From: Microbacterium yannicii PS01
GTDB lineage: Bacteria; Actinomycetota; Actinomycetes; Actinomycetales; Microbacteriaceae
Reading direction: 5' to 3'
NCBI RefSeq assembly: GCF_000304335.1
Contig: NZ_CAJF01000019.1
Location: 1-64,000, forward strand
DNA length: 64,000 nt
Part shown: piece by piece, positions 8,422 to 37,685 of the stretch
Numbering within the stretch: position 1 is the stretch's first letter
Layout of the letters: the number at the start of each line of letters is the position of its first letter
Notes under the pieces: generated by a model
Seen by the model: only the letters and a program-made list of their open reading frames with translations
Database searches by the model: none
Told to the model about the DNA's origin: nothing
Made by a program: the position numbers and the translations under genes

Positions 8422-9787
8422 TCAGACGAGAGCCGCCTCGCGCGCCCGCAGGTCTTTGCGGAGGATCTTCCCGGCCGCGGACTTCGGGATCGCCTCGATG
8501 AACTCCACCCGGCGCACCTTCTTGTGCGGCGCGACGTGCTCGGCCACGAACGCCATCACCTCGTCCTGGGTGAGTCCGCTGTCGGGCGCGGGCACGATGA
8601 ACGCCTTGGGGATCTCCTGCCTGTCGTCGTCGAGCACGCCGATGACCGCGGCATCCATCACCGGGCTTGGTCACCCCGTCGGGGCCGACGTCGGTGATCT
8701 CTTCGCCCGTCTCGGTGTCGATGAGCTTGTTGAGCGTGTTCGGCAGCATGGTGCCGACCGAGCTGACGGGGATGTCGTGGCGGTCGACGGGCATCGCGTG
8801 CGACACCGGGCTGAGCTCGCTCATGCCGTAGCCCTGCATCATGCGCGCGTTGATCCGGCGTCCGGCCAGCTCGGCCGTCTCGCCGTCCAGCGGAGCCGCG
8901 CCCGAGAACACGGTGTGCACGCTGGAGATGTCGAACTGGTCGACGACCGGGTGCTTCGCCAAGGCGACGGCGATCGGCGGCGCGATGTAGAGGTAGGTGC
9001 ACCCGAAGTTCTGGATGTTCGTGAGGAACTCGACGAGGTCGAACTTCGGCATGGTCACGAGGCCGGCGCGCTGACGGAGCGCGAGGTTCAGCAGCACCGT
9101 CATGCCGTAGATGTGGAAGAAGGGCAGCACGGCGAGCACGCGGTCGGTCTCGCGCAGGTCGAGGCTCACGCGGCATTGTTCGACATTCGCCACCAGGTTG
9201 CGGTGCGACAGCATGACACCCTTGGGCACCCCGGTCGTTCCCGACGAGTAGGGCAGCACCGCGACGTGGGTCGCCGGATCGAACGAGACCTCCGGAGCGG
9301 GCGCGCCCGCGGTGAGCAGGTCCCGCAGGTTCGGGTGCCCCGGAGCGCCGTCGAGGACGATGACGCGATCGTGAGGGATGCCGGCGGCCTCGGCGGCGAT
9401 CTGCGCCTGGGGAAGCAGTGGGTGCACCGTCACGAGCCAGGTGGCACCGGCATCCCGCAGTTGCTTCTCAATCTCGCCCGCGGTGTAGAGCGAGTTGACC
9501 GTGGTGACAGTGCCGCCGGCGCGGAGGATGCCGTGGAACACCGTCGCGAACGCGGGGACGTTCGGGCACAGCACCGCCATGACGGTGCCCACGCCGACCC
9601 CGCGTGCGGCGACCGCGCCGGCGAACGCCTCGATCTGCGCGCGCAGCGCGGCGTAGGTCGTCTCGGCGCCGGTGGCCGGATCGATCAGCGCGACGCGCTC
9701 AAGGTCATCGCGCTCGAGACCGGTGAAGAGGTAGTCGAAGATGCTGAGCTCGGGAATCTCGACATCGGCAAAAGGGCTGGTGAACAC
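8422..9787 (-). pseudogene. Long-chain-fatty-acid / 4-coumarate CoA ligase, broken by internal deletion
   Basis: The N-terminal part runs from GTG 9787 (SD GAAGGAG) in one frame with all adenylation motifs: PYSSGTTGVPKGVMLSHRN, FFHIYGMTVL and MQGYGMSELSPVSH. It continues to DVGPDGVTKPG and is then out of frame. The C-terminal end resumes in another frame as MDAAVIGVLDDDRQEIPKAF through PKSAAGKILRKDLRAREAAL. About 65-70 residues expected between them (the TGD and DRLKELIKYKG hinge motifs) are missing. The junction at 8658-8665 is CCCGGTGA, which would encode both the PGE before and the PVM after the gap, as expected for deletion between short direct repeats. An assembly error is the alternative. 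Confidence 0.85.
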
Positions 9788-35312: not shown

Positions 35313-36320
<1,008 letters not shown>

Positions 36321-36331
36321 CCTTCACCCGA

Positions 36332-36413
36332 AACGGCCTCCGCCGGCGCCCGCTGGGTGACGGACGGGGGCCGTTCCGCGCGTTCGGCCGACACGCCTGG
36401 CGTGTCGGCCGAA
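36332..36413 (+). terminator. Two hairpins after nrdF
   Basis: Just past the nrdF stop, AACGGCCTCCG (36332-36342) pairs with 36365-36375 (11 bp, one G-U, 22-nt loop). Next, TTCGGCCGACACGCC (36383-36397) and GGCGTGTCGGCCGAA (36399-36413) form a perfect 31-bp palindrome around a single T, so the folded loop must open a few pairs. Neither has a U-tract. The second could also end a transcript coming from the right. Confidence 0.6.
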
Positions 36414-36454
36414 GTCCCTACAGATTTTCCGCCCCCTCGACGCTAGCGTCATAG

Positions 36455-36583
36455 CCGGGACGTCCCCAGCGTCCCACGGGAGTAGGTGTCCCCAGCACCC
36501 TCCGTGCCACGGCGCTCGTTCGCCTTGGGGGAGTTCGATCGCCGTGGCAGTCGGGCCTCGGCGTCCCCAGCGCCGGGGCCCGG
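36455..36583. ncRNA. Candidate structured RNA with three identical-loop hairpins
   Basis: Three hairpins share the loop TCCCCAG (CTGGGGA on the other strand) but have different, self-complementary stems: GGGACG/CGTCCC (36457-36475), GGTG/CACC extended by GGAG/CTCC (36479-36503), and GGGCCTCGGCG/CGCCGGGGCCC (36553-36581, one U-G pair). Between the last two, TGCCACGGCG (36505-36514) pairs with CGCCGTGGCA (36540-36549); its 25-nt loop contains GGGGGA (36527-36532), complementary to the UCCCC loops. A palindromic TAGCGT -10-like sequence lies at 36444-36449. The strand is not certain. C-rich UCCCC loops on the plus strand recall Gram-positive sRNAs that pair with ribosome-binding sites. I do not recognise a known family. 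Confidence 0.4.
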
Positions 36584-36703
36584 CGATCTTTGCAGCGGAG
36601 TGACGCAAGACGCGTCATAGAACAGCGATCTCTGCGTCTCTTGATGCGGGGACACATGCCGACCCCCGATCGGCGTCCTCGCCGCGACCCGAATGCGCGG
36701 CCA

Positions 36704-36734
36704 CCGGGGGCCGGACGTCTGGGCCGGCCCCCGG
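36704..36734. terminator. GC-rich hairpin at the end of the nrdF-hydrolase gap
   Basis: CCGGGGGCCGG (36704-36714) pairs with CCGGCCCCCGG (36724-36734), an 11-bp stem with a 9-nt loop. It could terminate a plus-strand RNA from the hairpin region at 36455-36583. The rest of the 501-bp gap (36584-36703 and 36735-36821) shows only a small TGACGC/GCGTCA stem near 36601 and no gene. Confidence 0.4.
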
Positions 36735-36821
36735 GTCAACCTGTTCGCGATATCCGGCAGTGGACCGGCAGCCGCGCATCTGGCACCGTGGGAAGCCTCG
36801 CCCGCGACCCAGTGAGGGACT

Positions 36822-37685
36822 ATGACCGACCCGATGACGGCTGAATCCGGCTACGCGCAGCTCGGCGACCTCCGGATGTACTACGAACAGCACGGCGTGC
36901 GCGCCGACGGCGGTGAGCCGCTCGTCCTCCTGCACGGCGGACTCTTCGACATCGAGCAGCAGTTCGGTGCGCTTCTGCCGCGACTGGCTGAGAACCGGCT
37001 CGTCGTGGCAGTGGACTTCCAGGGCCACGGACGCACCAATGACATCGACCGGCCGTTCGGATCGGCCGCTTTCGCCGGAGACGTCATCGGCGTGCTCGAC
37101 CTGCTCGGAATCGAGAGGGCCGACGTGTTCGGTTTCAGCGTTGGCGGCGCGGTCGCGATCGAGCTCGCGGTGCGGCATCCGGATCGAGTACGAAGGCTGG
37201 TCGCGTCGTCGGTGTCGTTCCGCGCCACCGGCATGCGCGGTCATGACAACGCGGACGCTGTCGGCTCGATGACCGTGGACATGATCGCGGGAACGCCGAT
37301 GGAGCAGTCCTATCTCGCGAAGTCGCCGCACCCCGACCGGGACCACTTGCAGCGCTTGCTCGACAAACTCGGCGCGACGTACACGGGCGGGTTCCCGGAC
37401 TGGACTGAGGACGACATCAGAGGCATCGCGGCGCCGACGCTCATCACGGTGGGCGACGCCGACATGGTGAGCCTCGATCACGCGGTCGAGTTCCTCCGGC
37501 TGCGCGGAGGCGACGTCAACGGCGACTTCGACGGGCTTCCGGCCTCGCAGCTCGCCGTGTTCCCGGGCACCACGCACTTCTTCGGTCTCGCACACACCGA
37601 GCTCGTTCTCGCCGCGGTGCTCCCGTTCCTCGACGCGCAAGAAGCCGGTCCCGCTGCCATCGACCCGGACGGGGCCTCGGCGTGA
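36822..37685 (+). CDS. Alpha/beta-hydrolase
   Basis: A 287-residue hydrolase: oxyanion region PLVLLHGGLFDIEQQFGALL, the DFQGHGRT strand, nucleophile Ser106 in VFGFSVGGAVAIELAV and the C-terminal His in VFPGTTHFFGLAHTEL. The substrate cannot be inferred. SD GAGGGAC lies before the ATG. The stop overlaps the GTG of the next gene (GTGA), so the two are translationally coupled. Confidence 0.85.
   Translation: MTDPMTAESGYAQLGDLRMYYEQHGVRADGGEPLVLLHGGLFDIEQQFGALLPRLAENRLVVAVDFQGHGRTNDIDRPFGSAAFAGDVIGVLDLLGIERADVFGFSVGGAVAIELAVRHPDRVRRLVASSVSFRATGMRGHDNADAVGSMTVDMIAGTPMEQSYLAKSPHPDRDHLQRLLDKLGATYTGGFPDWTEDDIRGIAAPTLITVGDADMVSLDHAVEFLRLRGGDVNGDFDGLPASQLAVFPGTTHFFGLAHTELVLAAVLPFLDAQEAGPAAIDPDGASA

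Follow-up and report, generated by a model that had tools for sequence, protein, structure and literature searches.

Downstream of nrdF in the window, i.e., the whole 64,000-nt stretch of Microbacterium yannicii PS01 analysed here (contig NZ_CAJF01000019.1), lies a sequence that folds into four hairpins, three of them with the same C-rich loop, and whose structure is conserved in other genomes of the genus. We consider it moderately probable that this is a free-standing plus-strand gene for an sRNA that is multicopy, confined to the genus and active in trans, pairing with G-rich sites in mRNAs by means of its redundant C loops.

Four hairpins in the interval behind nrdF

The interval from the nrdF stop to the next start, positions 36321–36821, spans 501 bases and is free of genes, as stated in the preliminary description made from the letters of the window. 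The features of the locus are as follows.

35346–36320, plus strand: nrdF, the upstream neighbour, outside the RNA (Pfam Ribonuc_red_sm, 7.2e-97)
36444–36449, plus strand: −10 box TAGCGT(C), from sequence reading, with no convincing −35 box
~36456–36590, plus strand: sRNA gene of ~135 nt with putative ends, the start (~36456) placed from the −10 box; covariance model match 36453–36586, 86.1 bits
36457–36475, plus strand: hairpin 1 of the fold, loop CCCCA closed by U-G, nine-letter motif GTCCCCAGC at 36462–36470
36479–36503, plus strand: hairpin 2 of the fold, loop CCCCA, GTCCCCAGC at 36488–36496
36505–36549, plus strand: hairpin 3 of the fold, 10-bp stem, 25-nt loop with GGGGGA, G-rich top CGCCTTGGGGGAG
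36550–36584, plus strand: hairpin 4 of the fold, 15 pairs including the U-G closing pair, loop CCCCA, terminator-like
36822–37685, plus strand: alpha/beta hydrolase gene, the downstream neighbour, outside the RNA (Pfam Abhydrolase_1, 1e-15)

The plus strand of 36450–36600 folds with a minimum free energy of −86.4 kcal/mol (z −4.34; 0 of 200 shuffles as good), and hairpins 1–4 follow one another almost without gaps, whereas the minus-strand fold of the same stretch is weaker (z −1.97; 9 of 200 shuffles as good). The tops of hairpins 1, 2 and 4 each consist of CCCCA closed by a U-G pair inside a G-C pair, i.e., GTCCCCAGC. The plus-strand fold and the motif counts given below confirm the three hairpins with an identical loop, U-CCCCA-G, reported in the preliminary description, and its additional hairpin with a 10-bp stem and GGGGGA in the loop is also present in the fold; the extended stem of the last hairpin, given there as 11 bp, is corrected to 14–15 pairs.

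The 64-kb window has TCCCCAG three times on its plus strand, every time in the loop of hairpin 1, 2 or 4, and three times on the minus strand, never with a 4-bp stem. The shorter CCCCA, found 86 times on the two strands, is flanked by a stem of at least 4 bp in these three hairpins alone; one further hairpin, on the minus strand at 9413, has the 6-nt loop TCCCCA (4 bp). When the 501-bp interval was dinucleotide-shuffled 2000 times, no shuffle produced three CCCCA hairpins or any one 7-nt loop in triplicate, and 8 produced some 5-nt loop three times. The three-hairpin observation is confirmed as real and far from chance.

The surroundings of the RNA contain further structure. Between nrdF and the sRNA gene, two perfectly matching 15-bp arms one base apart form an inverted repeat (36383–36413) that is perhaps the nrdF terminator, though it is without a T tail. 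Directly behind the sRNA, a second conserved structured stretch (36608–36740, plus strand; 74% over 149 bases in genome G096) terminates in a strong GC hairpin and is possibly another small RNA; it can also be aligned in G074 (L073), a genome with no CCCC RNA seen in its nrdF region. In G067 (L067), which is outside the 49 genomes matched by the covariance model described below, two more GTCCCCA stretches with hairpin-like flanks lie ~1000–1060 bases past nrdF.

Distribution, covariation and strand

A DNA similarity search of 58 genomes gave, outside the window's own genome, short matches that were not distinguishable from chance, one of which (G012:C3:1531091) later turned out to be a member of the family; a covariance model was needed. 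A search with the pattern GTCCCCAGC-N(8–38)-GTCCCCAGC found matches in 96 of 295 Microbacterium genomes, against 22 matches in 16 genomes for the reversed pattern, and across the family in 5 of 199 genomes, two of them Microbacterium including the window's own. One match sits just downstream of nrdF in G096, and a second copy in the window's genome was traced through a palindrome that lies upstream of many matches. Covariance model R1 was built on a training alignment of ten sequences, from which L270 (G305) was omitted as near-identical to L235. It matches 49 of the 295 genus genomes at E ≤ 0.01 and, at E ≤ 1e-9, 33 places in 26 of them, ten of these places belonging to the training set. Computation shows two copies in the window's genome, the window copy (86 bits) and a sister on the minus strand at C5:126685–126828 (113 bits). 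Among the weaker matches are second copies (G305, G012, G241) as well as RNAs from other C-loop loci. The family-wide R1 search (199 genomes, 85 genera) found none in the other 198 genomes, two of which are of the same genus, under strict filters that were used in both R1 searches and that may miss remote relatives. Within the genomes searched, computation shows the RNA family to be restricted to Microbacterium.

The strong matches, together with three weaker second copies (L358–L360), make up an alignment of 36 homologs, from which the weak matches L349–L352 and the duplicate L330 were left out. A locus of M. luticocti DSM 19459 (L094), which matches L050 of G214 without a difference over 3030 bases, is a true member; a scan of contigs across bacteria for the GTCCCCAGC pair gave at least 120 stretches, nearly all chance by a stem test, which L094 escaped through a wobble in its second stem.

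In the homolog alignment, which was fitted to the structure and is biased in favour of pairing, 95.9% of cells are paired versus 83.4% in shuffles, and sliding the partner by 1–3 columns lowers pairing to at most 56.3%. Two-sided changes are seen in 28 of 38 pairs, compared with 16.3 in shuffles (0 of 500 as high), the count being made on 35 distinct rows after one identical row was merged; an earlier, unfitted alignment of ten sequences already had such changes in 17 of 38 pairs. Computation shows that the structure is conserved. Selection on RNA structure, claimed in the preliminary description, is borne out by covariation across homologs. The covariation claim itself stands between genomes and not inside the locus, where the stem differences belong to different hairpins and are not covariation per se.

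Hairpin 1 (seven pairs) has 100% of its lettered cells paired, and its nine-letter motif is identical in 36 of 36 homologs, an invariance that is partly biased by the presence of the motif in all ten training sequences; hairpin 2 of the same RNAs varies. Both pairs that close the loop of hairpin 1, G-C and U-G, are invariant, while the outer pairs of the hairpin covary. The loop of hairpin 2 is TCCCCAA in several homologs and ACCCCAGG in L331, and its C run is absent in L357. Hairpin 3 has two-sided changes in six of six modelled stem pairs. The expectation of several C-rich loops within one RNA is supported.

The strand of the RNA is read from the wobble pairs. G-U occupies 160 of 1319 cells of the homolog alignment, whereas A-C or C-A occupies 16; since a G-U pair would appear as A-C on the opposite strand, the excess points to the plus strand, in agreement with the position of the −10 box and with the strand favoured in the preliminary description. 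Inverted repeats exist on the minus strand too and would suit either a DNA element or an RNA of that strand with CUGGGGA loops, but the wobble count, the better plus-strand fold and the order from −10 box to last hairpin leave this reading with hardly any probability.

Putative promoter, genomic contexts and related loci

A TANNNT box lies 4–7 nt before hairpin 1 in 36 of 36 homologs, and reads TANNGTC in all nine copies that lack the palindrome (window-type copies); computation shows this −10 position to be fixed. A sigma-70 scan detected no two-box promoter, and no consensus terminator was found for hairpin 4, whose T tail is weak in the window (GATCTTT); seven homologs (L323–L329) finish in CCTTTTC. 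The palindrome TGTCC...GGGGACA is present in 27 of the 36 homologs and ends 21 nt (four copies) or 22 nt (23 copies) before the −10 box; in the pattern set, TANNNT is found at 21–22 nt in 29 of 30 stretches with an upstream GGGGACA. This spacing would fit an activator site just upstream of the −35 region.

We rejected the palindrome as a mark exclusive to these RNAs. In the form TGTCCNC-N(4–8)-GGGGACA it is present in 57 of 59 Microbacterium genomes, and at 30 palindrome loci that were read TANNNT stands at 20–23 nt in four (L302, L307, L309, L310) and is absent in 26; of the four, L302 and L310 only are C-loop RNAs by reading. The palindrome (L291–L322) looks like the operator of some regulator.

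The RNA is found in at least three contexts, i.e., with hydrolase and ferredoxin-reductase-like genes (17 and 16 loci), with permease-like genes (7 loci) and near nrdF, the first three names coming from sequence reading; an alpha/beta hydrolase homolog is likewise downstream of the RNA in G096 and G183. The refuting condition named in the preliminary description, homologous intervals without the loops and compensatory changes, was checked and does not overturn the RNA: in five of nine window-type copies nrdF lies at most 1.6 kb upstream on the same strand. In G017 and G012 nrdF is 12 kb and ~65 kb away, and for the remaining two copies ~860 bases are covered. Among the 97 of 99 genomes in which nrdF was found, 30 nrdF loci were read, one of them truncated, and the RNA is within 1.5 kb in three of the 30. 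The RNA does not consistently accompany nrdF; since the neighbouring genes differ among groups of copies, it is the RNA that is conserved and not one gene context. Proximity to nrdF in the five copies would suit an element of the nrdF 3′ untranslated region, acting in cis in termination or mRNA stability, or else an RNA released from the nrdF transcript by cleavage, but the −10 box at a fixed distance, the inverted repeat that already intervenes between nrdF and the RNA, the groups of homologs that adjoin other genes and the 27 of 30 nrdF loci at which the RNA was not seen within 1.5 kb make such an origin very improbable.

The genus as a whole holds 106 distinct GTCCCCAGC-pair stretches (identical stretches merged before counting) that form 28 clusters, 13 of them with at least two members. 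Members that were read of the largest cluster (n = 50; L032, L034, L036, L038 and 46 others) adjoin, on the upstream side, one conserved gene, which begins MTDQRPQYGELAT or similar, and several printed members have two such hairpins followed by a terminator-like hairpin again with GTCCCCA. Both nine-letter motifs cap stems of at least three strict pairs in 53 of the 106 genus stretches, compared with 3 of 172 pair matches in the at least 120 contigs across bacteria; a few single clusters resemble coding repeats or chance (L044, L222). Elsewhere in the genus the same nine letters cap unrelated stems, at some loci behind the palindrome 21–22 nt before a −10 box, although the motif served as bait in finding these loci and its invariance there is built in. 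Two points weigh against so wide a set: no more than two C-loop RNAs are known in the window's genome, and there a shorter pattern (GTCCCCA twice) is not enriched, with two matches (the window RNA and one place on contig 39) versus two for the reversed control.

Other C-loop hairpins stand beside the palindrome, by reading, in L318 (~1380–1640) and also in L291, L295 and L300; L318 has one terminator-like hairpin with GCTCCCCCCGC (six C) and another with CAGTCCCCAATG. At gathering, a tRNA was the sole Rfam match in these loci. In L234 (G216:C1:1268966–1270097) two different C-loop RNAs are divergent, their nine-letter pairs ~170 bases apart.

We tentatively propose, as a possibility to which we give rather less than even weight, a genus-specific post-transcriptional code in which the hairpin top GUCCCCAGC, present two to three times in unrelated sRNAs, would address a single shared partner, either an RNA-binding protein or one shared set of mRNA sites. 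Several of the loci would then stand under one palindromic operator, and the window RNA and its sister would be members of the set.

Possible partners of the C-rich loops and comparison with known RNAs

For the trans-acting sRNA that we favour, we infer transcription, mRNAs as targets and pairing that blocks translation. An RNA of ~135 nt would be transcribed from a plus-strand promoter of its own and end at hairpin 4; its UCCCCAG loops (hairpins 1, 2 and 4) would begin pairing with UGGGGA-type G-rich stretches located at the start of a few mRNAs or close to it, and the pairing would block translation or alter mRNA stability. Among 356 start regions, predicted in 20 stretches of G183 and in the window with a home-made gene caller whose starts are uncertain, GGGGA occurs in 6 and TGGGGA in 1, the regions carrying AGGAG-type sites; further upstream GGGGA occurs 0 and 5 times, so that start regions are little different. 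The rarity of TGGGGA means that the loop misfits the usual AGGAG-type ribosome-binding site of the genus and that the RNA would be selective. General anti-Shine-Dalgarno action is rejected on these counts. In G183 an 8-nt match, GCTGGGGA, is found at sdhD, in the end of the upstream frame. As a target sdhD, the best candidate, was rejected: of 30 orthologs, taken from the best 30 of 284 genomes with a match, 4 have TGGGGA and 3 the whole of GCTGGGGA; TGGGGA is present in 2 of 18 carriers and is absent in the window's own genome. Neither the start regions nor sdhD thus yielded a target.

The invariance of the closing pairs of hairpin 1 exceeds what pairing of a C run needs, and counts against the mRNA-pairing reading. 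It leaves a protein partner as a serious rival, in which the GUCCCCAGC loops bind an RNA-binding protein and the RNA and its sister titrate that protein, as CsrB does CsrA, through a different motif. We regard such a sponge as unlikely on the whole. The constancy of the motif and its closing pairs in all 36 homologs above covarying outer pairs, its recurrence on unrelated stems elsewhere in the genus, the three loop copies per RNA and the rarity of the loop complement at predicted start regions all agree with it; however, the loops of hairpin 2 vary among homologs, the recurrence elsewhere was found with the motif as bait, and the protein is putative. CsrA is not that partner, as its gene (PF02599) has 0 matches in the window's genome, compared with 7 of 20 genomes searched in which it is present.

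Hairpin 3 could in principle occupy the C loops, UUGGGGG and UCCCCAG having seven possible pairs (−10.3 kcal/mol). Of the 36 homologs 32 have its GGGG, which is lost in L357–L360, RNAs that retain two or three TCCCCA, and two of its Gs take part in conserved local pairs (columns 96–104 and 97–103). The proposal that this hairpin holds the loops inactive is therefore weakly supported, favoured by the retention in 32 homologs but opposed by the four losses and the local pairing: self-masking is possible and not required by the family. Extended to a network in which the G-rich top pairs with C loops within its own RNA or in its sisters, the copies thereby masking or sponging each other, the idea gains from the existence of other C-loop RNAs in the genus, but the same losses, and the conserved C-G pairs that the top makes of its own, leave it quite improbable.

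Few actinobacterial sRNAs have been mapped beyond the mycobacteria, corynebacteria and streptomycetes. For mycobacteria, RNA chaperones are described as unsettled (PMC8628891). An sRNA family that covaries, keeps one nine-letter loop constant, has two sisters in this genome and shares its loop with other loci of the genus is a testable system, which could tell whether mRNAs or a protein read such loops. Among the literature matches listed, which cover few subscription journals, no Microbacterium sRNA of such kind was found.

The preliminary description recognised no known RNA family, and comparison with Rfam 15 agrees: the whole window has no match at gathering. For 36300–36830, searched up to E 10, the best match is Scr3202 (RF02833), a Streptomyces sRNA to which hairpins 3 and 4 align weakly, at 23.4 bits versus a gathering threshold of 52 (E 0.41), which is chance level, and we rejected the identity. 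Fifteen loci (fourteen from the pattern and one from the nrdF search, including L032, L036 and L038) gave no Rfam match, and another fifteen, including the sister copy, gave one tRNA and nothing else at gathering.

CsrB/RsmZ-type sponges resemble the window RNA in having several hairpins with one repeated loop motif. That motif is GGA, which the plus-strand loops of the window RNA do not contain. A CsrA sponge on the minus strand was rejected for the window's genome on the absence of the gene.

The C-rich loops prompted a comparison with 6C RNA (RF01066), on which Mai et al. (2019) reportedly worked; none was found in the window, in 36300–36830 up to E 10 or in the whole genome at E ≤ 0.001, and the identity was rejected. 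Like the window RNA, 6C is an actinobacterial sRNA with C-rich loops, and its two loops can bind G-rich sites near ribosome-binding sites, according to PMC10470900 and PMC8628891. It consists of a pair of stem-loops, usually with six C apiece, according to PMC4046766, which concerns the C. glutamicum form, whereas the window RNA has three loops of four C in the frame U-CCCC-A-G, four hairpins of which one is G-rich, and two copies. B11 is the mycobacterial 6C, and it represses mRNAs through its redundant C-rich loops: in M. abscessus either of two C loops suffices to repress eccB4, whose leader has six G (PMC10470900).

LhrC has an Rfam family, and no family reached gathering in the window. 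LhrC1–5 of Listeria monocytogenes are five copies, each with three redundant UCCC sites, one of them in the terminator, through which a G-rich start region is bound (PMC4132741). The window RNA shares three redundant UCCCCAG loops, one of which is in hairpin 4, and has two copies in its genome; it consists of four hairpins, whereas LhrC has loops and a single-stranded stretch, and LhrC is induced through LisRK, where here a palindrome precedes 27 of 36 homologs. The resemblance is a likeness of working and not membership. By analogy with B11/6C and LhrC the window RNA should pair with UGGGGA-type sites, and our best reading is that it may work in the manner of 6C/B11 or LhrC while belonging to neither.
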